Source: Gigantopelta aegis (Eukaryota > Mollusca > Gastropoda > Neomphalida > Peltospiridae). Taken from it: 64,000 nt of DNA. The position numbers were made by a program, and so were the translations under genes. The stretch is taken from NCBI RefSeq assembly GCF_016097555.1, contig NC_054704.1, positions 32,686,554 to 32,750,553 on the forward strand. The letters are read 5' to 3'. The notes beneath the pieces were generated by a model that saw only the letters and a list, made by a program, of their open reading frames with translations, ran no database searches and was not told where the DNA came from. Shown here in pieces: positions 21,013 to 64,000 of the stretch. Within the stretch, counting starts at the first letter, position 1; every line of letters starts with the position of its first letter.

Positions 21013-30005
<8,993 letters not shown>

Positions 30006-45772: not shown

Positions 45773-48700
45773 ATACACGGTTTTTTTTATTGAGAGAATG
45801 TATTCTACATTTCAGGCTATCATTATAAAGTACAGCTGTCGTTTGGCAGTCAGTTTGGTGCACGGGCAGAGCGTGGCGACATGTTCGTCAATTTAATCGG
45901 GAAAACCGGCCAGACAGGAGAACTGACACTTAACAAAGAGTAGGTAACATTATAATGTATTTACTTCAATTCAGTACATTTCTAGTCTTGAAGATTACTT
46001 CAGTGATTTATGAAGGAAAATTACTGGTAAAAGTGGCCAAGCAATGTATGAAAAAACTATATAAAAAAGTTTAATTAGGAAATTTTAAATTTTTATATTA
46101 CCATTTCATAGTCTGTATAGGCCTATAAATACAGGGACGAGGGACCTGTGCCCCCCACTCGATGAAAAAAATACACGCCACTACTCTATTTACCGTAAAT
46201 AAAGATACAAATCTGGATTGCCCCCCTCCCCCCTCCCCCCCCCCCGATAGCGTTGCAGCGGGCCTGCACTAAGACATTTAATGCAATTAGCACTCACCTT
46301 AAGATAGGTATTTTTTCAGTGATATGTATATACAAAACTGCACACCATCTATGCATTTGTTATTCAGTCACATGTACGTGCAGCCGGGAATGTCATACAA
46401 CTTTGTAGTGACGTCAGTTAAAGATATTGGCGACATCACCAATGTCGAGTTCCGGTGGCATCACAATTCTGCTTTATTGAACCCGCTGAGCTGGAATCTC
46501 CTGAACTTCCGACATCCAAGGCTGTATCTAAACAAAGTAAACGTTGTCAACGGGCACACGTCTAACCAGTGAGTACAACATTTTGTTACATGCGCGATTT
46601 TCTAATACATCGCATACATGATTTTCATGTTCGTGCTATACGTGATCTTTGTTTTGTGCTATACGTGGTCTTTGTTTTGTGCTATACGTGATATTCGTGT
46701 TCGTGCTATACGTGATCTTCACGTTCGTGCTATACGTGATCTTCATGTCCGTGCTATACGTATATTCGTGTTCCTGCTATACGTGATCTTCACGTTCGTG
46801 CTATATGTGATCTTCACCTTCGTGCTATACGTGATGTGATCTTCATGTCCGTGCTATACGTGATATTAGTGTTCGTGCTATACGTGATCTTCACGTTCAT
46901 GCTATACGTGATCTTCATGTTCGTGCTATACGTGATCTTCACGTTCGTGCTATACGTGATCTTCATGTCCGTCCTATACATGATATTCGTGTTCATGCTA
47001 TACGTGATCTTCACGTTCGTGCTATACGTGATCTTCATGTTCGTGCTATACGTGATCTTCGTGTTCGTACTATACGTGATTTTCACGTTCATGCTATACG
47101 TGATCTTCATGTTCGTGCTATACGTGATATTCATGCCCGTACTATACGTGATATTCGTGTTCGTGCTATACGTGATCTTCATGTTCGTGCTATATATAAT
47201 CTTCATGTTCGTGCTGTATGTAATCTTCATGTTCGTGCTGTATGTAATCTTCATGTTCGTGCTGTATGTGATCTTCATGTCCGTGCTATACGTGATATTC
47301 GTGTTCGTGCTATACGCGATCTTCACGTTCGTGCTATACGTGATCTTCATGTTCGTGCTATACGTGATTTTCACGTTCGTGCTATACGTGATCTGCACGT
47401 TCATGCTATACGTGATCTGCACGTTCATGATATACGCGATCTCCATGTTCGTGCTATACGTGGTATTCGTGTTCGTGCTATACGTGATCTTCACGTTCGT
47501 GCTATACACTTCACGTTCGTTCTATACGTGATCTTCATGTCCGTGCTATACGTGATATTCATGTCCGTGCTTTACGTGATATTCGTGTTTGTGCTATACG
47601 TGATCTTCACGTTCGTGCTATACGTGATCTTCAGGTTCGTGCTATACGTGATATTCGTGTTCGTGCTATACGTGATCTTCACGTTCGTGCTATACGTGAT
47701 CTTCATGTTCGTGCTATACGTGATCTGCACGTTCGTACTATACGTGATCTTCATGTTCATGCTATACGTGATCTGCACGTTCGTGCTATACGTGATATTC
47801 GTGTTCGTGCTATACGTGATCTTCACCTTCGTTCTACACGTGATATTCATGTTCGTATTATATGTGATATTCGTGTTCGTGCTATATGTGATATTCGTGT
47901 TCGTGCTATACGTGATATTGATATTCGTACTATACGTGATCTTCTTTTTCGATCTATACGTGATATTCGTGTACGTGCTATATGTTCGTGCTATACTTGA
48001 TATTCATATTCGTGCTATACGTGATCTTCATGTTCGTGCTATTCGTGATATTCGTGTTCGTGCCATACGTGATATTTACGTTCGTGATATACGTGATCTT
48101 CGGTGTTCGTAGTATACGTAATCTGTGTTCGTGATGTATGTTATATACTCTTCAAAAGAAGAAACGCAAAACCACATTGTCGTAACATTTGGAGAATTGA
48201 TTTAATTATTGAATGGTGAGTCCGATAATTACCAAATGTTGCAGGATTGTTCACAATTCACTCTAGTCCATTGTGAGTAAGTGATAGGACACACCACCAA
48301 GGTCAAGGTCATCTGGAGTCAATACCGGGTGTGGCCTCCGCGTGTGTTGACAACTGCCTGGCACCGCCTGCCCATTGAAGCAACCAGAGTACGGATGACG
48401 TTCGGGGGATGGTGGCCCACTCGGTGCTATGCCAGCTCGGGCAGGGTCTCTGTGGTTGTCGCTGTCGGGAGGCGTCGGTCCAACTCGTCCCATAGATGCT
48501 CACTTGGGTTCAAATCCGGTGATACGATGGCCAAGGAATCTTAATGTGTTGTTCTGTAGGAAAGCCGTTGTGAGACGTGCTGTGTGAGGCCTGGCGTTTC
48601 ATGTTGGAACACTGCGTTGGCGTTGGCCATAACTGGAACGATGTGTGGCCGGAGGATCTGGTCAATGTAGTCCTGTGCATAGGTTGCCCTGCACGTGGAC

Positions 48701-51700
48701 CAGGTCAGTTTCAGTGTGTCGTGCTGCCCACACCATGACACTACCCCCGCCGAATCTGTCCACTTCCTGCACGCAGTTTGCCGCATAACGTTCACCACGA
48801 CGCCTATACACGCGACATCTTCCATCATGACGTCGGAGCAGAAATCGGGACTCGTCACTGAACCACACCTTTCTCCATCGCAGTTGAGGCCATTTCGTGA
48901 ATCTGGCACCACTGCAGTCGGATCGACGGTGTTGTGGTGTTAAGATGACACCTCGAACTGGACGTCTGGCACGAATTCCTACCTCACGTAGGCGGTTCCG
49001 TACGGTCTGGTCGGATATCCTGCGCAAACCTGGTATTGCTGCGGCTGTGGAGGTGGCTATACAATCGTTCCCGAAGGTGGCGTACCCGGATGTAGCGGTC
49101 GTGTTCGGGGGTAGTGACCCGTGGTCGACCGGATCTAGGGAGGTCACGTTCGTGCATGAATGTGAACTTCACAGTCTGGAGATGGTGCTTGGGGACACAT
49201 GGAATGCCCTGGCAACGGCCGCTCTGGATTCGCCTGCGTCTAGTCGGCCGATGGCATTGTTTCTCTGCGGTTCACTGAGACGTGGCATGTCCTGGATTGT
49301 CAACTGTCGGCCAGATACAGAGGCCAGGCAAGCTATAACACCCTGCACTTTTATACTGTCGTGTTCTGCACGTGCAGACAACGCACGTGCAGTGGTGACA
49401 TGATTTGCGCGTGGCTGCGTGCTATTACGTGGAACTTTATTTCAGTAGCTGCGTTTTTCGTGTAACCGTGGGAATGTGTTTGGGACTATGTGATCTTCAC
49501 AAAGTTCGGTAGGAAACTATACGTGAGTTCATTTGTACCCTTTTGCGTTTCTTTTTTTGATGAGTATATTTTTGTTTATGGCATACATATCTCCTTATAT
49601 TTTGCTCGTGTTCATTATATATTTGTTCGTGCTATACGTCATCTTTGTATTCGTGGTGTACGTGATTATCATGTTCGTGCTATATGTAATCTTCATGTTC
49701 GAGCTATATATAATCTTCATGTTCGTGGTGTATGTAATCTTCATGTTCGTGCTGTATGTGATTTTCATGTTCGTGCTGTATGTGATCTTCATGTTCGTGC
49801 TGTATGTGATTTTCATGTTCGTGCTGTATGTGATCTTCATGCTCGTGCTGTATGTGATCTTCATGCTCGTGCTGTATGTGATCTTCATGTTCGTGCTGTA
49901 TGTGATTTTCATGTTCGTGCTGTATGTGATTTTCATGTTCGGGCTGTATGTGATTTTCATGTTCGTGCTGTATGTGATTTTCATGTTCGTGCTGTATGTG
50001 ATCTTCATGTTCGTGCTGTATGTGATTTTCATGTTCGGGCTGTATGTGATCTTCATGTTCGTGCTGTATGTGATTTTCATGTTCGTGGTGTATGTGATCT
50101 TCATGTTCGTGCTGTATGTAATCTTCATGTTCATGCTGTATGTAATCTTCATGTTCGTGCTGTATGTTATCTTCATGTTGATGCTGTATGTAATCTTCAT
50201 GTTCGTGCTGTATGTGATCTTCATGTTCGTGCTATATATAGTCTTCATGTTCGTGCTGTATGTGATCTTCATGTTCGAACTATATATAATCTTCATGTTC
50301 GTGCTGTATGTGATCTTCATGTTCGTGCTATATATAATCTTCATGTTCGTGCTGTATGTAATCTTCACGTTCGTGCTGTATGTAATCTTCATGTTCGTGC
50401 TGTATGTGATCTTCATATTCGTGCTGTACGTGATCTTAATGTTCGTGCTGTATCTGATCTTCATGTTCGTGCTATACGTGATCTTCATGTTCGTGCTGTA
50501 CGTAATCTTCATGTTCGTACTGTATGTGATCTTCATGTTCGTGCTGTACGTAATCTTCATGTTCGTGCTGCATGTGATCTTCATGTCCGTGCTATATGTA
50601 ATATTCATATTTGTGCTGTATGTGATCTTCACGTTCGTGCTGTATGTAATCTTCATGTTCGTGCTGTATGTGATTTTCATGTTCGGGCTGTATGTGATCT
50701 TCATGTTCGTGCTGTATATACGTGTTCGTGGTTATGTGATCTTCATGTTCGTGCTGTATGTAATCTTCATGTTACGTGTAATCTTCATGTTCGTGCTGTA
50801 TGTTATCTTCATGTTGATGCTGTATGTAATCTTCATGTTCGTGCTGTATGTGATCTTCATGTTCGTGCTATATATAGTCTTCATGTTCGTGCTGTATGTG
50901 ATCTTCATGTTCGTACTATATATAATCTTCATGTTCGTGCTGTATGTGATCTTTTTGTTCGTGCTATATATAATCTTCATGTTCGTGCTGTATCATTATA
51001 TATTTGTTCGTGCTATACGTCATCTTTGTATTCGTGGTGTACGTGATTATCATGTTCGTGCTATATGTAATCTTCATGTTCGAGCTATATATAATCTTCA
51101 TGTTCGTGGTGTATGTAATATTCATGTTCGTGCTGTATGTGATTTTCATGTTCGTGCTGTATGTGATCTTCATGTTCGTGCTGTATGTGATTTTCATGTT
51201 CGGGCTGTATGTGATCTTCATGTTCGTGCTGTATGTGATTTTCATGTTTGTGGTGTATGTGATTTTCATGTCCGTGCTGTATGTAATCTTCATGTTCATG
51301 CTGTATGTAATCTTCATGTTCGTGCTGTATGTTATCTTCATGTTGATGCTGTATGTAATCTTCATGTTCGTGCTGTATGTGATCTTCATGTTCGTGCTAT
51401 ATATAGTCTTCATGTTCGTGCTGTATGTGATCTTCATGTTCGAACTATATATAATCTTCATGTTCGTGCTGTATGTGATCTTCATGTTCGTGCTATATAT
51501 AATCTTCATGTTCGTGCTGTATGTAATCTTCATGTTCGTGCTGTATGTAATCTTCATGTTCGTGCTGTATGTAATCTTCATATTTGTGCTGTATGTGATC
51601 TTCATGTTCGTGCTATATCTAATCTTCATGTTCGTGCTGTATGTAATCTTCATGTTCGTGCTGTATGTGATCTTCATGTTCGTGCTGTATATAATCTTCA

Positions 51701-52700
51701 TGTTCGTGCTGCATGTGATCTTCATGTCCGTGCTATATGTAATATTCATATTTGTGCTGTATGTGATCTTCACGTTCGTGCTGTATGTAATCTTCATGTT
51801 CGTGCTGTATGTGATCTTCATGTTCATGCTGTATGTAATATTCATATTTGTGCTGTATGTGATCTTCACGTTCGTGCTATACGAGTTTTTCAAGTTTGTG
51901 ATTCTAGTGTACGTAGTATATACGGTATTGGGGCGGATGGTAGCCCAGTGGCAAAGCGTTCACCTGATGTGTGGTCGATCTGGGATCGATCCGTGTTGGT
52001 AGGCCCATTGAGCTATTTCTCACCCAAGTCATCACGATTGGTATAGCAAATGCTGTGGTGGTATCCTGTCTGTGGGATGGAATATATAAAAAATCCCTTG
52101 CTACTAATGCAAAAAACATGTAGCGCGTTTCCTCTTTATGACTATATATCAAAATTACCAAATGTTTAACATTCAATAGCTCAATGTGCTCTAGTGGTGT
52201 CGTTAAACAAACACTTTTTAATACACACACACACACACACACACATGCGCACTCGTCTTTAATCTGTGATCGTAATAATCGTAATCTTTTTGTTTGTGAT
52301 ATACATATCTCCGTATGTGGTGCAAATATACTTTTCAATCTCGATGTTACTGGTTTTGAATTATGATCAAATTTAACTTTATATATCTTAATATTTATGA
52401 GTTAGACATTGATAAACAAAATTTAGTATTAGATTTTGCATTACCGTTAGCTAACTCAAGAAATTACTGATGTAATTTTTCAATCCCTAACATTTTGTTT
52501 CAACCTTTTTGTTTTAAATTTCTTTTTAAAAAGCATGTTTATAATACATCATTACGTCCAGTAATAGAAATAATAATATTGCATGATTACGAATTATGAC
52601 AAAGAAAATGATTTTGTTTAGATATACGTTGTGTGGTCACAGCGGTGGAGTCGAGAATGGGCACAAAGATCGGCTTTCCATAGGAGCACACACTTGTTAA
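36881..52700 (+). CDS. Pancreatic-lipase-family triacylglycerol lipase (11 exons, complete)
   Basis: Exons 36881-36950, 37693-37958, 39242-39388, 39700-39808, 40520-40636, 42835-42951, 43452-43567, 45213-45345, 45816-45939, 46320-46568 and 52622-52700 join in phase to 1527 nt, 508 residues. A secretory signal (MLKVVLLLTLWALVQPKS) is followed by RHKR, a possible processing site. The catalytic domain shows VCYDALGCFS, VHGYLENG, nucleophile Ser177 in GHSLG, Asp200 in GLDPAEP and His285 in CSHLRS, which is the Ser-Asp-His triad at normal spacing. The lid loop runs from the Cys of QPGC to the Cys of FVAC, about 24 residues, as in classical pancreatic lipase. Residues from about 360 form the PLAT/C2-like domain, and the last exon supplies YTLCGHSGG through SIGAHTC. 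The usual VDW after strand 5 reads VGW. It probably hydrolyses dietary or stored triglycerides outside the cell. The last intron is 6.05 kb and full of minisatellite. Confidence 0.95.
38030..38740 (-). mobile_element. 3' fragment of a LINE in lipase intron 2
   Basis: The minus-strand translation contains ERLCNICNLGTIGDEIHLIL, the C-x2-C-x8-H type finger near the C-terminus of many molluscan non-LTR elements, followed by short conserved-looking pieces and a TTC-repeat tail at 38034-38045. It is truncated and full of stops. The subfamily is not assigned. Confidence 0.6.
38771..39080. repeat. A/C-only low-complexity tract
   Basis: About 310 bp nearly free of G and T on the plus strand (AAAACCCC- and AACAACAA-like). 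Four similar tracts occur at 5968-6080, 6870-7070, 12945-13090 and 17722-17868. Confidence 0.85.
39900..40175 (-). mobile_element. tRNA-headed SINE (family C-like), degraded
   Basis: The minus strand reads caggcctcggtactcggtag, then gttagtgggtactgagttcg, a tRNA-like head. It lies in lipase intron 4, and the body is diverged. Confidence 0.55.
40673..40770. repeat. 98-bp palindromic element
   Basis: gtactgattttacgaaac at 40673 is mirrored by gtttcgtaaaatcagtac ending at 40770, with a further imperfect match inward (gtgtcag against ctgacat). It is a hairpin-forming small MITE in lipase intron 5. Confidence 0.8.
41237..41320. repeat. (GA)n microsatellite
   Basis: About 84 bp of GA in lipase intron 5. 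Confidence 0.95.
41472..41612 (+). mobile_element. SINE 5' half
   Basis: Head 'gagacgtagctcagaggtaa' and 'ccattgggttgtgtctagtt' retained; the element stops after 'aaggctgtggtatg'. A separate minus-strand tail piece is at 41335-41372. Confidence 0.75.
41640..42260 (-). pseudogene. Tc1/mariner transposase fragment (N-terminal HTH part)
   Basis: The minus-strand frame 42226-41828 includes RWRVVGMPESGTSQRDVVRQ and then FNVHRNTIWQLWQRYQQ, a paired-like helix-turn-helix with the arginine-rich linker after it. The DDE catalytic region is missing. It lies in lipase intron 5. Stops follow at the 41.8-kb end, where similarity continues a little. Confidence 0.75.
42280..42760. repeat. Compound TA / TATG / TCTG / TATC microsatellite
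   Basis: About 480 bp of tetranucleotide repeats with recurring 'tatggctg' interruptions, ending about 75 bp before lipase exon 6. The three overlapping reading frames over it are artefacts. Confidence 0.95.
43135..43200. repeat. Hexamer repeat (CTTGAT/CTTGAG)n
   Basis: About ten 6-bp units in lipase intron 6, followed by ATG/GAT-rich sequence to 43375. Confidence 0.85.
44375..44595. mobile_element. Diverged hAT-like MITE
   Basis: Shares gcgcgtgcg, 'cccctgctcaaggcgaa' and 'gcggcgctcg' with the element at 9909-10192. The ends are degraded. It lies in lipase intron 7. Confidence 0.6.
45535..45715 (+). mobile_element. Degraded SINE family A 3' half
   Basis: Body and tail blocks (atataaaagacc, 'aaatgtagcg', 'agtggtgttagtggtgtc') are recognisable but diverged. 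It lies in lipase intron 8. Confidence 0.6.
46612..48145. repeat. 24-bp minisatellite, array 1
   Basis: About 64 tandem units with core cgtgatcttcatgttcgtgc. The unit is eight codons long, so frames stay open: plus strand VIFMFVLY, minus strand KITYSTNM. It lies in the last lipase intron and starts about 45 bp after the exon-10 donor. There is no start context, splice pattern or composition supporting a protein. Confidence 0.95.
48147..49465 (-). pseudogene. Inactivated Tc1/mariner-type DNA transposon
   Basis: About 1.3 kb. In minus-strand order: helix-turn-helix region (SRAAVARAFHVSPSTISRL, 49381-49169), linker RSGRPRVTTPEHDRYI, first catalytic Asp in VWFSDESRFLLRRHDGR, GGGSVMVWA, a second-Asp region reading FQHETPG where QHDNARPH is usual, and SPDLNPSEHLWDELDRR. 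These lie in at least three frames, so frameshifts have broken it. The termini are weakly alike (agaaacgcaaaac and gctgcgtttttcg). It sits between the two 24-bp arrays. Confidence 0.88.
49612..51905. repeat. 24-bp minisatellite, array 2, with internal duplication
   Basis: About 95 units of the same 24-bp family as array 1, mostly with gctgtatgtgatcttcatg. A 1381-bp block starting at 49613 ('cattatatatttgttcgtgc') is repeated from 50994, with some units lost. Open frames of 837 and 518 residues (plus) and 369 and 309 residues (minus) follow only from the 24-bp period. Confidence 0.95.
51931..52217 (+). mobile_element. tRNA-derived SINE, family A
   Basis: Head 'ggatggtagcccagtggcaa', B-box-like gggatcgatcc, tail 'gtggtgtcgttaaacaaaca', followed by (CA)n. 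It abuts the end of minisatellite array 2. Confidence 0.85.
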
Positions 52701-55079: not shown

Positions 55080-58000
55080 TATGTTTTATATTGTCCAGCT
55101 ATACAAAATCAGTTAAATGTATTATTATTTTCGCATATATTCTTTTTACAAATGAAAATCTGACTGGTGCGTTTTCAGTGAAGTTCAGTATATTTTTCTG
55201 CTACAAAGGCCACTCCTACCGACTGGTATATATCATAGTAGTTGGTAAATTAGGCTTTCTTAGGCATAAATATTCCACGATTGTAGAGTTGTAAACGTGA
55301 AAATATTAAAAATATATATCACCTTACTAAAATTGTGACATCACAGGTTATTTCCGTGGACCCTTCACACATACACACACACACACACACATACGCACGC
55401 GCGGCGCTGAAGTGAATTGATCATACGACTGATCGCACCCCAAGCAAACACTGTATCTCAATGTTTTCACCCTTAACAAACAGAAGAAGTAGGGAACAAA
55501 ACTCCCAAAACAAACACATTTTTCAATTTGCAACATCGATTTTATTTTATTTGGCAATGAACAAAACAAAACTCTGCGAACGTGATCACAAAATTGACAT
55601 AAGCAGTTAATTATTTATCATATGAAATCTATAATCTTGTACGAATTCCAATTATTGATTTACAAGATACGTTAGATTCCATATTTGTCATACAACACAT
55701 GGCTAATTAAAGACTGTCTCTAAGGTATACTATTAACAACAATAATTTAAATGTGCGTACTGTACTACTGCCCATTAAACAGACAAAAATCAAATCAATA
55801 TAAAATATAGTGTTTTAAACATCATTTATATAAAAGTAATATCTTGAAGTGTATTTATTACTTAATTTATATTCCATTTCTAAACCTGTAATTGAAATAC
55901 ATTTTATTGAAATAGTATAGCACAACAGAGCACAGCATAGCGCAGCGCAGTACACAATAGTATACAGGATAGAGTAGACCTTTGCAGTATAGGACATATT
56001 CGTTTTATAAACAGAATTTAATTAAGCGCCCCTGTTTGCTTTTTCACGACTAAAAACATGTGCTTACTAGCATTCAGTCTCAAATACGACGAAACATTAA
56101 TGCCATCTGAAAGATAAGTCTTTTGACTAACAGAAACACAAAAAATTATTGCAATTTTCAATATTTTAATTGCCTTAACACAGTTTTGACAATACTGTAT
56201 TTGTGGCAAAACATCGCTCTAACCAATGCCCCACTACACGTGTATCAAAGGCCGTGGTAACGAGAAAATGTAATGGGTTTCTTTCTAAGACTATGTCAAA
56301 ATCACCAATGTTTGACATCCAATAGCTGATGATTACTAAATCAATGTGCTATTGTGGGGTCGTTACACAAAACAAACTTTGTTTTGTGGTAAACCAGGAA
56401 CAACAATAACTATAGATCTAGAAAATTCTACAATCATGTATAATTGACTAGCCTGTCAGAAAACGTTCATTGTAACCTTAGAAAGACAACCCCAGTCCAA
56501 AACGTCAGTAGCAAGTGGACCCGACACGTGCCCGGATAACAACATGTACCCTTCTTCCGATTCCCCCAGTGACTTGTCCTATACACGTTTAGAACCTCCT
56601 CTAGCTATAAGAGCTTTCTAGCGATACACCAAATAAACTTGCATTTTTATCAAAGGTTATATTAGCGTCCTTTATTATTTCAGGGGGTACTTAACTTATC
56701 TGTGTAAATAAAGATATGGAATTAAATGGCATTGCTTAGCGCTTTGTTACTTGATAATTCATATTTTGACGAAAATCCACAAATGTAAAAAATAAATAAT
56801 TAACAAACAAATGGAAACCAGTAATAAAGTCAGAAGTAAAAAGAAACCAAATAAGAAGAGAAGCGACACACGAAGAAGTGGGTTTTTAAAAATTCAGAAT
56901 GGCTGTATTGGCAGAGAAAATCTTTTATATCAGTTTAACACAGCAGTGGTAGGTCGAATACTGTCAACGGTCTCGACTCGAAAGTCTACCCAACGTCAGT
57001 ACAGCTGGGACGCTGGTGCTAAAGGCACTACGCCACCGTTTGTCGTGTCGTTATTTGTTTTAGCATCTTATTATGGTCATATTTAGGGAATAAATGAATG
57101 AATGAATGAATGTTTAACGACACCCCAGCACGAAAAATACATCGGCTATTGGGTGTCAAACTCTGGTAAATGCAAACAGTAAGTGATATTTAGGGAATAG
57201 TTCCTAATTAAAAAATAATACAAAATTCTAAAATGCCTTTTGAAATAACCTCAGTAGTATTTAAATAGCCCACTGGTTTGACGTTGCTTGTTATTTTTAG
57301 AACTAATTAATGACAACTCTGAAAGTAGTATACTGCCACTCGTGTAACAGAAAATAAAGAGAAAAAGGCAGTGCTATGAAATAAGCATGGCTGATCGAAA
57401 ATCTTCGTGGATTTGTTTGCAAGGTAGTTGTCTATGGAGACTACTTGATAAACCTAACAGTCGGGCAGTCCTCTCAGTGTCGTATTTCTCACAGAATATC
57501 TTATGACAAAGAGATTATATTGAATTGCATGGAGTAATTAATGGTGGTGTGCAACCTGAAACAACCTTACTAGAATCATCGTAAAACGAACATCGCAAAT
57601 GGGACAATTTTTCAGGACATCTCGACTGTCCCTAGATCTGCAGCTGATCCACCCTTCTCATCAGGCATTTAACTCGATATTTTATCTAAACAGTCAAGTT
57701 AAACTAGTATATTGTTTGAATGGTGAGCTCTCAGTTTCCTGTTTTCCCCAAAATTATCATTTATGCATTTTAAGATTGTTTGTCTTAGCAATTTAATCAA
57801 ATTATATGTTACAAAAAAAAAGAAAAAAGTGTCCAAAGTGTTGAGTTCTGAATGGTCGCTGTGCAGATCAACCGAATTACCGTAGCAGGTAGGAGGCTAG
57901 AAGTTTTTCTTAAAACATGTGCGTGTGTAGAGGGGGATTTTAAAAAATATATTTCGGGTGGAGCAAGACACTAAATAAAATATTCGCTCGCCATACTCTA

Positions 58001-58460
58001 GAACCCCCCCCCCCCCCCCCCCTGCGTGTGCTGTAACCTCACCGTGGTGCAGGGGTGTAACATTCTCTTTGAGAATAGCCAATACAGCACAAATTGAAGT
58101 TTAAAGTAAAAGTCAGTATCTATCTGTGATATTTTTATTTTTGCACAGTTCTTTACACTGTTTTTATTTATATCTTGAATTTTTCTATTGATGTTGATCA
58201 TCACCTTATTTGTTTCCATTACCATAGTTTGACACCCAATAGCCGATGTATTTTTCGTGCTGGGGTGTCGTTAAACAGTCATTCATTCATTACTCTAGAA
58301 CCCCACCTACATAATTTCCTGTACACGCGTCTGTATGATTTTCTGTGATGTTAAGTGCAAGGCTAGAAGTCTTAGTTTCAAGATGGTGCAGTGAAAATAA
58401 AACCAGTGATGATGACAGTGTCTGCGAGCCGATGTCTTGGAGCGCCTTAATCGCGGCAAC
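55080..58460. other. Intergenic between convergent lipase and TSP1 genes
   Basis: Contains a SINE family A 3' half (56213-56390, plus), a short gtttaacgacaccccagcac repeat (57090-57172) and a degraded hAT-like MITE (about 57917-58336) that itself holds a reversed copy of that short repeat (58212-58297). An open frame of 91 codons at 56811-57086 (METSNKVRSKKKPNKKRSD and onward) matches nothing I know. TTTATT at 58163 could be the polyadenylation signal of the minus-strand gene. Confidence 0.6.
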
Positions 58461-58471
58461 AAGCGCAGGTG

Positions 58472-60319
58472 TCAGACCGCCATGCCCATGCAGAGCACGT
58501 TGCCCACTCTCACCTTGCCCATCTCGTCTTCAGCACCTGCAGGCGAGACAGAAAACAGTTCAGGGGCATAATTCACAAAGCTCTCTTAAACTCTTTTAAC
58601 GTCTCTTAAGAAACATCGTATTGTCACTGAAAATAGTTTTTCACTGCGTTGCCAGATCGCAAAATCGCGAGAGTTAAGTGAATTGGGCCCCTGATTCATA
58701 ATGATATATACTTGTATAGTTCTAACACAGCGTTATGGCTAATTATGAACTTGCGCATTATTGCACCTGGTCCCAACTCGTCGGAGAATTGCATGGGTGT
58801 AGGGTGTGCCGAAAAAATCCGAGGAAACAATACAGGAGGATCGCTCTTAAACCACAGGGTAAATGCTTGTTGACTACAAAGTTTGATTTTTGGAAAGAGC
58901 TTCCCCCGCAGTACACAAAAATTTATTTTTGACGGCATTTGTTCAAATCCCTTCTCTAGATATGGCCATGTTGGAGACAAAAGCACAATGCCATATTAAC
59001 CTGCTGCGGGGCCAGTAACAGAACGATAGCATATTACACGTGTCCCACCCTTACCATAGGCTTACCTAGTGACAAAAATAAACAACCACCCCCTACTACC
59101 ATATGCTTACATAGTGACAAAAATAAAATAGCCTCTAATTGCAGTCAGCAGATCGAATAACCATAAAAAAAAATCAATCACCAGGGCCCCTGAAAGCGCG
59201 GGGCACAAAATATAAATTTACTATATCTTCTACGTTGTAAATCAGGCACTGCAAAAACAACATAATAACACACTGAACAGAAATACACGATCCTAACAAA
59301 TTAAAGATATACAAGTATTCAATATGTGTTTAATAAATATAATTACATCACGTGTGACAGTTCGAAGCACTCAACATCTAGCGAGAATGACACTAGTATT
59401 ATATTATGTGTATGAAGTGAATGATGGCTAAATGCTGAGTGGTCCGAAAAGGTCACGTGATGTTTAAATGGCGTCCATCTTCTTCGGTGGAACAAGTTAA
59501 GAAAGTTTAGGATCTTTTCCCCAACAGAATATTGGCCCAACGTGTCCGAACCCGGCTTCGTTTAGTCCTCCTTCAAATAACAAGAAATCAAGTACAATGT
59601 GTAACTGATATGGACTCATTTTACTACATGGTAAATATGTCACTAACAGGGTAGCATCAGAGAGAAAATACAGTAACAAACTGACGAAACTGGAGTACAT
59701 CAACTTATATTAAAATAACAATCAGTTACATACACATGCACGCATATGATGTCTAAAACTGCCCATATTTGTGATTAATATAGTACATTTTCTTTATATA
59801 AGATCTGTGTTAGTCCATAAAGTGAAATGATGTATCTGTAGTTGAGAGGATTGAGTAATATAGTCATATTCGTTTTATCAACTGATGTATCTCTTTTCTT
59901 GTATAAAGTTACGATTTTATCAACTGATGTATCTCTTTTCTTGTATAAAGTTACGATTTTTTATGTGGTAACAATATTGTCAGTTTCATTACTATGATGT
60001 TACAATAAACAGATGACTAAATACGACAAACTGATGATAATATAAAAAGGAACATCATAATGACAATGATAAAAATAAAAGACAACACGTATCGTTATAA
60101 AAGGAGAGAACAAAAATAGCCTTTTAATAGTTAATAAGACAGGTGTTTTTAATAAAAGACAATTGATAAACAAATATTTAAACATGATGAAATACACGAT
60201 AACACATTTTACATAAAACCACACCGTAATAAATAAATAAAAAAACGTACCATAATAAAACATGACATAATATTTGAAAAATAGAAAGTAAAACATAAAA
60301 GACATGACACGACACGACC

Positions 60320-60418
<99 letters not shown>

Positions 60419-63372
60419 CTCGCCTGTATCTCCTGCTACAAATTCAACAACAGGCAGATCATCCTTGTACGTCAGGTAGCCGGAATCCTCTCTCCAGACG
60501 TCATCATTCATGTCACAGTTGCACGCAAGGGTCGGGTCAACGCAGGAACCTGTCATGCCACACCCACAATTGCCGCTGCCAGGACTGCCACCCCCAAAAT
60601 AGTCGACCAACTCATTGGTCCTGTTCTTCCAGCCAGTGGTGATCATGCCCAGCACGTCACTGTTGGGGTTGTGGATGAGCGCCGCCTTGCACTTCCAGCT
60701 GATGAACTGCTTGCACGACTTGGAGTTGTCGATAATGGCAATGGCTTCCTCCAGCGTCACGTTGTAGTTGATTATCATCTGGAACTCTCCCGCGCCTTCG
60801 TAACCGACCACCTCTTCCTCCTCCTGCTGGTCGTGACCTGTGAATAAAATAATGTGCGCTGGTTTCAATCGTCGTATGTAGTTTGTTTAAAAAGAATGTA
60901 CATTATATATATATATATATATATCAGTTCCAAAACTATGAGGATTTATAAATATTAAAAATGTATATGCACCAAACTCTATAGTTAGAAAGACATTTCA
61001 TGTTGTTGGGTATCTAAATAGAAAACCAAATCCAAATTTGTATTTAGAAATCATCAAACCTTGGCAAACATTATGACGGAATATAATCTAGCATCACATT
61101 AACAAAACCAGGGAATTGCTGAAGGTACTTTTGAAACAGTATAGCTTTAACAGTAGCTGCCATGGATTTATACGGATTCATATAAAATACAGTTATCTAC
61201 TTGATGTCATTTGATTTAACAGGCATTCCATATACAATGTATAACTGTACCTATAACAGTGACTCCTATACCATCCTCGAACAACACGTCACAATAAACT
61301 AGTATGCTCCTTGTAATAGTCTGTGGGATGGTGCATATAAAAGATCCCTTGCTACTAATCCAAAAGAGTAGCCCGTGAAGTGGCGACAGCGGGTTTCCTA
61401 TCTCAATATCTGTGTGGTCCTTAATTATATGTCTGAAGCCATATAACCATAAATAAAATGTGGTGAGTGCGTCGTTAAATGAAACATTTCTTTCCTATTC
61501 CTTCCTCGGACACCATGTCACAGTGCACTAGTATGACCTTGTAATAGTTGATTTTAAAATAAGACAGACTTGTACCTATAGCAGTGACTCCTGTCCCGTC
61601 CTCAGACACCATGTCACAGTGCACTAGTATGACCTTGTAATAGTTGATTTTAAAATAACACAGACTTGTACCTATAACAGTGACTCCTATCCCGTCCTCA
61701 GACACCATGTCACAGTACACGAGTATGACCTGGTAATAGTTGATTTTAAACTAAGACAGACTTGTACCTATAACAGTGACTCATATCCAGTCCTCGGACT
61801 CCATGTCACAGTACACGAGTATGGCCTTGTAATAGTTAATTTTAAACTAAGACAGACTTGTACCTATAACAGTGACTCCTATCCCGTCCTCAGACACCAT
61901 GTCACAGTACACGAGTATGGGCTGCTGGAGAGTCTCGGGTTTCTTGAAGGGATCAATGTGCGCCATCGTGTTCTCCTTCAGTCCGCGCTTCCCCCACTCT
62001 GTGCACGTGGCAGCTGACAACAGTAAAGGTATATAATGGAGACAAAACACGAGGAACGTTCACAAAAAATGATCCAATTATCTAAAATTAGATTTACACC
62101 ATAGACTCAAAATGCACGCGTCTAATGAGAGGGGCTTCATGTATGAAAACACATACAAGGTTGTTCACATTGGCTGTTATAAAAGTCATGAACACCCTGA
62201 ATGAACTGTGTAAAAAAAATCCTATACAATGTCGTGAGAAACTATATGTTGTATATTGTAAACATTAATCATAAAGGGAAATAGATTTATTAAGTCTATG
62301 GATATATTTGTTTTGAAAATCAGCAAGAAATAAAATATTTATAAAAAAATCTGAAACCCACCCCACTCCCCCCAAAAAAGAAGAGAAACCGTCAGTTTTA
62401 TTTTAAAATAATTTTTGTAACTTTTAATTGCCGCTTGTTTTTACAGTGGATATGAAAGTTATGAATAAAATTACTTTATATATCATGACTAATTAAGGAG
62501 GTGTTGTTTTGTTTAATACATTTTATCAGTTTTGAAACATTTCCCAGTTTGGTCTGTGTTTATGTTTGTAAAGTGTTGTTGATGTACGCTAAAAAGAAGT
62601 ACTACTTACCATACGGCGTGCATGAAAATGTGTGACAGTCTTCAATCTCTTTAGCATCACCGGCACAGGGAGCAGTGAGATCACCGTATGACGTCATGTC
62701 ACACTCTCGCTGTCGTTGCCGTTTTCCACCGCCGCAAGTAACTGAACAAAGCGGCCATGATTCCCATGGGAACCAGTCTCCTGGTACTAATTCAGAAAAT
62801 AATTATATTTAGAATAAAATATCGTGATACGAATTTTGCTAGAACATCTTCATATTAAATAAAGTACAATAGTAGCAATGTGTACCTGATATTCTATATT
62901 ACACTTTCTATAGTAAACTTTACTTTACTTACGTTAATATTTTTTATGTTAATTACATCTGTTAATTTGTTATTAACAACGTTTTTACAGAAGTATACTG
63001 CGGTATCTACTTGAATATCATCACGAATTTTCTTTTATGAAATATAATAAACTGTTATAGTGTTTGAGTATTAATTATACAAAATAAGCACTAACCTTTA
63101 ACTGCACTGTATTAAAATTAATATAAACAGAAACTAAATATGTCATGGTCCCATGTTTATTGAATTTAAAATCCAAAAGTTTATAAATTAATGTACTATC
63201 CCCTCACTTGGACAAACATTCACGTTGCAAATCAGATACTCTGACGAGTTTCCAATACAGTCGGCGCCGCCATATTTTGGCTTTTCACATTCGCGAGTTC
63301 TCTCCCTTGTTCCACCACCACAAGTGGCGTTACATGTTCCCCAAGCCGACCAGGAATACCAAACTCCATCAA
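58472..63372 (-). CDS. TSP1-repeat protein with CNTNAP-like fibrinogen domain, 3' five exons (5' end outside window)
   Basis: Exons 63372-63208, 62786-62610, 62013-61864, 60837-60424 and 58536-58472 (TGA at 58474-58472) join in phase to 322 residues plus stop; every junction is phase 1. The first two are thrombospondin type 1 repeats: [20 protein letters not shown] and [20 protein letters not shown], each with the six-cysteine pattern. The remainder resembles the fibrinogen-like region of contactin-associated proteins: [61 protein letters not shown] and a short C-terminus ending VLCMGMAV. No membrane segment follows, so it is probably a secreted or matrix protein, perhaps coadhesin-like. The last intron uses GC-AG borders. 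The start and any signal peptide lie beyond 64 kb. Confidence 0.9.
60323..60415. repeat. (TA)n microsatellite at a splice donor
   Basis: About 46 TA units, beginning within ten bases of the donor of the 60837-60424 exon. Confidence 0.95.
61241..61918 (-). repeat. Tandem 96-bp copies of an exon tail plus splice donor (TSP1 gene)
   Basis: The last ~55 nt of the 62013-61864 exon (gtgtactgtgacatggtgtc and onward), its donor (tatag|gtacaag) and about 41 nt of intron repeat downstream. Donors lie at 61862, 61766, 61670 and 61574, exactly 96 bp apart, with a further copy at 61249 and a partial copy cut by a SINE. One copy has a TGA in the exon frame; others stay open. Confidence 0.9.
61321..61497 (+). 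mobile_element. SINE family B, 5'-truncated, inside the 96-bp array
   Basis: Runs from 'tctgtgggatggtgcatata' to 'gtcgttaaatgaaacatttc'. It interrupts the exon-tail array, so it is younger than the array; about 40 bp of array seem lost at the site. Confidence 0.85.
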
Positions 63373-63509
63373 CTGTGAGAAACAATAATAGTCTGAATTG
63401 TTGTTACTTTAATAACCAAGTGACTATGTATTTTAGGGCATGAATACATCAATATTTATCACGTCAACCAGTTAAAAAATAAGACTGTTTATAATCAAGT
63501 GATCACTTG

Positions 63510-63547
63510 CTATACTGGTACTATGATAACGAATAAATAAATACTTA

Positions 63548-63582
<35 letters not shown>

Positions 63583-63640
63583 ATACTTATAAACAAATAA
63601 ATACAAACATAAATAATTAAATAAATAAGGAATAAACCAG
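63510..63640. repeat. (ATAA)n repeat
   Basis: ATAAATAA-type repeats with 'atacttataaa' interruptions. The remaining sequence to 64000 is AT-rich intron of the TSP1 gene with nothing recognised. Confidence 0.85.
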
Positions 63641-64000
63641 TTAGATTGATATATTTGCACTTTCTCTCTCATTAAATATATGACGTGAAATATTTCTTAG
63701 TACTTGTTATATTAATATATAATATCGTGATTAATAAACCTATTCATACTGATTGTATACTATAGTCTTACAGCAAGGAAAGTTTTTTACCTAAGTATGA
63801 AATTTACTACAAATTATTTATTTCTGAGCACAAAAAATAATATGTTTTTTTCCCACAACACTTTTATTTTTCTTCTTACGTCAAACCACACTGAAATTAT
63901 TTACAAAAAACATTTTTGTAGTTGGATTGGACGGACTATAGTATGTGATACCTTACAAATCGTTAAGAAATAATAAATGTCAAATGCTAAATATGAGTAA

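Follow-up and report, generated by a model that had tools for sequence, protein, structure and literature searches.

The window analysed here is a 64,000-nucleotide stretch of the Gigantopelta aegis genome (contig NC_054704.1), and it carries on its minus strand part of a gene that appears to encode a TSP1-rich, fibrinogen-like protein, the fibrinogen-like assignment coming in part from a weak match. The intron that follows exon A of this gene contains a tandem array whose 96-nucleotide (nt) unit, read on the minus strand, consists of the 56-nt tail of exon A, the splice donor and a 40-nt intron head. The parts of the array and its surroundings are listed below.

61864..62013, minus strand: exon A, 150 nt, with which the fibrinogen-like region opens
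60838..61863, minus strand: array-holding intron, 1026 nt, phase 1, GTACAAG...TTCACAG, delimited by reading
61919-61864, minus strand: unit 1 tail, the last 56 nt of exon A
61824..61863, minus strand: true donor and unit 1 intron head, beginning GTACAAGTCTGTCTTAG, with an in-frame TAG at 61849-61847
61728..61823, minus strand: array copy 2, 96 nt, donor 61767, with an in-frame TGA in its tail and a TAG at 61753-61751 in its head
61632..61727, minus strand: array copy 3, 96 nt, donor 61671, identical to unit 1 over the initial 59 nt
61536..61631, minus strand: array copy 4, 96 nt, donor 61575
61494..61535, minus strand: array copy 5, cut after 42 nt, donor lost at an insertion resembling a short interspersed nuclear element (SINE)
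61321..61492, plus strand: SINE-like element, 172 nt, separating copy 5 from copy 6 and lying antisense to the gene
61246..61320, minus strand: outlying older copy 6, donor 61250 (GTACAGTT)

Tandem Repeats Finder (TRF) called the array at 61493-61919 with a period of 96, 4.4 copies, 93% matches, 0% indels and a score of 721. Six copies of the exon tail are present on the minus strand, starting at 61919 (the exon itself), 61823, 61727, 61631, 61535 and 61306, the first five exactly 96 nt apart and the sixth 229 nt beyond the fifth. The array in the window is thus comprised of the exon copy, three full copies, one copy truncated at the SINE-like element and one older outlier. Both the TRF call and the copy starts bear out the initial annotation, which had described an exon tail and donor amplified at a 96-nt step. 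Five intact ATAG/GTACA donors were found, with the first intron bases at 61863, 61767, 61671, 61575 and 61250; the donor sites given in that annotation are real, but these bases lie one position higher than it had placed them. The usual intron head of the unit was not found behind copy 6, where GTACA passes directly to other intron sequence. The 35 kb of this gene hold ten tandem arrays of period at least 20, and only the 96-nt array overlaps a coding exon, as counted over the 16 exons considered in this gene.

DNA searches of the genome (1.149 Gb; two of two candidates scored in each, with repeat counts to be taken as lower bounds) found the array at this locus and at one paralogous locus only. 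The second array lies at C6:32844042-32845083, on the same strand and about 96.6 kb away, where it occupies the same intron of a tandem paralog. It consists of 11 in-register copies and one older outlier beyond a SINE-like element, and its tandem repeat amounts to 10.8 copies at 92%. The two genes therefore differ in copy number, with 6 and 12 tail copies, respectively, when the real exon is counted. Two marks of a minisatellite are present, a constant head-to-tail step at both loci and a change in copy number, the latter seen between the paralogs. Six of the 10 unit steps in the paralog are 96 nt and four are 97 nt. Copies 5 and 7 of the paralog share a 1-nt insertion in the tail, and its copies 4 and 6 are identical in sequence, which together suggest that a two-unit block was duplicated. 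Copy 12 of the paralog, like copy 6 in the window, is without the usual head after GTACA.

In both arrays a SINE-like element adjoins the oldest copy, directly before it, and such elements might perhaps shield that copy from exchange. By arithmetic, the element in the window replaces about 39 nt of the unit. The paralog element (L007, 2729 to about 3041) is sense to its gene and flanked by repeated TTTGTTTAA, and because the two elements have opposite orientations the insertions look independent. Full-length matches to the element occur elsewhere in the window at 27273-27444 (90.7%) and 23492-23324 (89.5%), together with a match of 64.5% at 22415-22553 and ten shorter ones, and one more was found in the paralog.

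The remaining exons of the gene that lie in the window are the following.

63208..63372, minus strand: TSP1 exon further upstream, PF00090 E 3.3e-13, borders placed by reading
62610..62786, minus strand: TSP1 exon upstream of exon A, PF00090 E 2e-12, borders placed by reading
60424..60837, minus strand: exon B, 414 nt, ends AGDT, GC donor (ACAG/gcgagt)
58472..58536, minus strand: exon C, last coding exon, ends in a stop, placed by reading, paralog equivalent present

The two TSP1 exons score 47.5 and 50 bits with PF00090 against a cut-off of 21.6. Eleven further TSP1-type exons, judged by sequence likeness and not by Pfam, lie beyond the window, each with a counterpart in the paralog, and the gene may extend past the exons compared. 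At the exon A/B junction ATA G is joined to GT CAC GAC, exon B starting at 60837. The GC donor of exon B at 60423 (minus strand) abuts a long TA run at 60323-60418; the paralog has GTAAGT at this position. A Pfam scan of exons A-C gave no fibrinogen match, and exon A matches the fibrin(ogen) gamma chain weakly (E 0.64 and 0.65). Exons A-C may resemble a contactin-associated-type C-terminal domain. Pfam matches to RNase H and picornavirus coat families were under the curated cut-offs and were taken as chance. A single-sequence search of the PDB returned no match at E 0.001 and none relevant among 11 at E up to 10, an Rfam scan of 56000-64000 returned nothing at gathering score, and plasmid records gave no match. 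Elsewhere in the window there are two large arrays with 24-nt units, at 46614-48124 and 49624-51878. The second of these falls within an extended open frame of LYVIFMFV-like repeats (839 codons from stop to stop, 49527-52046), which may be merely a stop-free repeat, as its 24-nt unit is divisible by three.

In a protein search of the genome with exon A (16 candidates scored), all 13 matches at E up to 0.1 fell at this locus and the paralog, so that no close array-free relative is available among them to root the array. More distant relatives of exon B were found at four loci (E 1.7e-8 to 8.6e-4), and these gave no root either. Exon A matches them weakly in tblastn, with a best E of 0.084 on L011. 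There the exon A match adjoins the exon B match within one long open frame, so this relative seems to be without the array-bearing intron.

These features are probably those of a passive intronic minisatellite that has the real coding exon end as its first unit, that was born by a duplication across the exon-intron boundary, and that evolves through unequal exchange inside either gene and through exchange from one gene to the other. Its founding event would have been a tandem duplication, or the pasting of a copy, that took the exon A tail, the donor and about 40 nt of intron, after which unequal exchange would have multiplied the unit. Tandem duplication with unequal exchange fits best, in agreement with the simple slippage that the initial annotation had offered as an alternative. 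The edge copies without a head (copy 6 here and copy 12 of the paralog) could be accounted for in two ways: the first event may have been a duplication whose edge was later lost or decayed, or it may have pasted the tail some 40 nt into the intron. At the RNA level the first donor would be used, as it gives the normal 150-nt exon and the sole full-length frame, with the other donors acting as intronic decoys.

The array units differ no more between the two genes than within them. Intron heads (36 positions) show 1.95 differences between the genes, 2.17 among the units of this gene and 1.33 among those of the paralog, and for the tails the corresponding values are 5.4, 4.0 and 5.89, as calculated from four units here and ten of the paralog, the truncated and outlying copies and paralog copy 11 being left out. 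Within the window, unit 1 and copy 3 agree at every one of their initial 59 nt (the 56-nt tail and GTA), whereas the intervening copy 2 differs at 4 of 59. Outside the units, alignment with the paralog scores 26 for the intron ahead of exon A (50 shuffles, mean 25.0, maximum 35) and 27 for the stretch beyond the last copy, which is barely above its shuffles (mean 20.3, maximum 26). Comparison of the gene pair (C6:32744554-32780000 and C6:32841000-32880000) revealed a strong exon-by-exon patchwork of likeness, with a synonymous difference of 0.027 to 0.570 over the 15 exons other than exon C (chi-square p about 1e-10). Patchy gene conversion between the paralogs would account for this unevenness. 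The value for exon A, 0.187, is the median of the 15, and the array region appears to be one island of likeness among several and not a special one. From these comparisons we infer that the arrays of the two genes exchange sequence as part of an exon-sized patchwork of exchange along the pair.

Because unit 1 contains the true end of exon A, the last 18 codons of that exon would be rewritten by any exchange or contraction that involves unit 1 and a later unit. A stronger form of this idea, in which the array serves as a store of replacement exon ends whose non-coding copies rewrite the start of the fibrinogen-like region in two genes that also swap arrays, is unlikely. If moved to the front, three of the window's four complete spare tails and seven of the paralog's 11 would yield an exon end that reads cleanly; the remainder comprise one here and one in the paralog with a stop, two out of frame and one scrambled inside. 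The real exon tails of the two genes differ at two amino acids (V/E and I/T), and both variants occur among the spare copies. Such sharing does not reveal the direction of exchange, because the exon itself was the source of the copies.

The initial annotation had proposed that the donors could yield isoforms with variable loop length, read-through between copies keeping the frame, and the sequence speaks strongly against this reading. In its favor are the five intact donors, a unit length divisible by three and an open stretch of 91 codons (61475-61750) that begins at the end of copy 2, reaches through copy 5 and contains the units at 61669-61475 correctly described as open. However, a reading frame that continues across the true donor is closed before it reaches the copies: it encodes five residues, Gly-Thr-Ser-Leu-Ser, and then meets the TAG at 61849-61847, ahead of any open unit. 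The single stop-bearing copy that had been noted understates the case, as the open units are preceded by three in-frame stops, namely the TAG of unit 1 and the TGA and TAG in the tail and head of copy 2. By reading, the paralog has the same TAG past its donor 1; ten of its 11 in-register heads carry CTTAG, and its 97-nt units shift the frame. Alternative donors giving isoforms with extra 32-residue repeats are accordingly a scarcely credible explanation, and read-through isoforms were rejected from the reading frame of this assembly, from which isoforms with longer loops could not be made. Inclusion of a tail as a mini-exon between the AG at the end of a head and the next donor was also rejected, since by reading it would be 58 nt long and shift the frame; the pyrimidine content before these AGs is 8-9 of 16 at 12 sites. 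Because of the TAG just past donor 1, use of a later donor without removal of the intron head would yield the same truncated protein, and a leak to any decoy would end there. Competition between donors is possible at the RNA level, but its outcome in either gene would be a truncated protein or message decay and not a longer loop.

Predicted pairing with the 5′ end of U1 is -5.8 kcal/mol for the true donor, the in-register decoys here have the same sequence, and the donor of the outlying copy reaches -6.6 kcal/mol; by comparison, 5% of random 14-mers from the window reach -5.0 kcal/mol. As donor 1 and the in-register decoys share their pairing strength, sequence alone would give donor 1 no advantage, and its use is probably owed to proximity to the exon A acceptor. 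The decoys could be imagined as a regulated off-switch, in which decoy use or intron retention adds five residues and a stop, the number of decoys sets the leak, and the product is a TSP1-only protein without the fibrinogen-like end or a message that decays. The sequence identity of true donor and in-register decoys, the TAG common to both genes and the weakness of the true donor, when compared with -9.3 kcal/mol for one TSP1 exon and -8.5 for the GC donor of this gene's exon B, and with -12.8 for the paralog's exon B, are consistent with this proposal. However, the other TSP1 exon in the window has an equally weak donor (-5.3 kcal/mol), so the weakness is not special, donor conservation is not significant (see below) and copy number differs widely between the paralogs, all of which make an off-switch quite improbable. 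Stepwise splicing, in which ATAG/GTACAAG serves as an acceptor-like and a donor-like site and the 96-nt steps are removed serially to give the same final message, draws on the AG/GT present at nearly every step and on AGGT duplicates as a known route to introns (PMC3443670, PMC4974935). The context upstream of the unit AG/GT is pyrimidine-poor, with 6-9 of 16 at the 16 of 17 sites measured, compared with 11, 11 and 13 of 16 for three of this gene's acceptors and 11 each for two acceptors in the paralog. The measure, though crude, points against stepwise splicing, which is highly improbable.

Several observations weigh against the passive reading. The AG/GT is kept in 14 of the 15 decoys that have a donor position (4/4 here and 10/11 in the paralog), and when paralog copy 10, the most decayed, is set aside, an invariant run of 17 nt surrounds the donor (p 0.056). 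Ten of 26 distinct changes in the decoy tails are synonymous where about 6 are expected, which hints at constraint or at traffic through the real exon. Other intron stretches do align between the paralogs, for example window 59588-59341 between exons B and C with 78.8% over 250 positions, so the poor alignment flanking the array does not hold throughout the pair, and exon constraint could likewise make the synonymous difference uneven. Weak constraint on the donors is possible, though the observations hint at it at most. The longest invariant run is 10 nt (p 0.35 by permutation of columns over 14 units, without copies 5 and 6 of the window and copies 11 and 12 of the paralog), a single column varies within the donor 9-mer (P 0.12, no significant conservation), and variable columns number 23 of 56 in the tail and 10 of 40 in the head (Fisher p 0.13). 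Selection on the donors was rejected, their conservation not significantly exceeding that of the remaining unit. Of the 26 changes, taken from 14 decoys with both real exon tails and two outlying copies left out, 14 are nonsynonymous (about 19 expected), 10 synonymous (about 6 expected) and 2 stops (0.5-0.8 expected). Two decoy tails carry stops and two have a shifted frame. Translation of the decoy tails as a coding repeat was rejected, the change counts showing no sign of it.

Read as a passive minisatellite, the array is irrelevant as a source of longer protein isoforms because the frame is closed. Its interest would lie in a repeat that grows out of a coding exon boundary, its own first unit, and does so in two sister genes of unequal copy number. 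It is a natural experiment on how one donor is selected in splicing when several identical ones follow each other, and on whether exchange can return spare copies from the intron to the coding sequence.

Ordinary intronic minisatellites with concerted evolution show unequal exchange, block duplication and an old degenerate edge copy. The array described here shares all three, but stands apart in having a coding first unit that bears the true donor. No description of a donor-bearing array of this kind was found among the titles and abstract openings covered by a limited literature search, which is no proof of absence. A tandem duplication across an intron-exon boundary in which splice signals were copied is described for the potato RNA-dependent RNA polymerase (RdRp) gene (PMC4974935). 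As in that case, the duplication here spans an exon-intron border and carries splice signals; in the array described here, it is the donor side that is amplified, to 6 and 12 copies and in an existing intron. The same source reports 24-bp exonic AGGT repeats in fission yeast, with introns across four or two duplicates shown by expressed sequence tags (PMC4974935). Both systems are multi-copy AGGT arrays in register with splice sites and differ in length between two related genes, whereas the yeast repeat is an exonic segment with a shorter unit and a tag-supported intron, and the unit here holds an intron head. In the general model by which AGGT duplication leads to introns (PMC3443670), the unit would likewise carry AG/GT, and each step here could in principle be a precise intron, but the array has a pyrimidine-poor acceptor context and its intron pre-existed. 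The donor side, the copy number, the occurrence in two paralogs and the exon end as unit 1 would together set this array apart from the known border and AGGT duplications.
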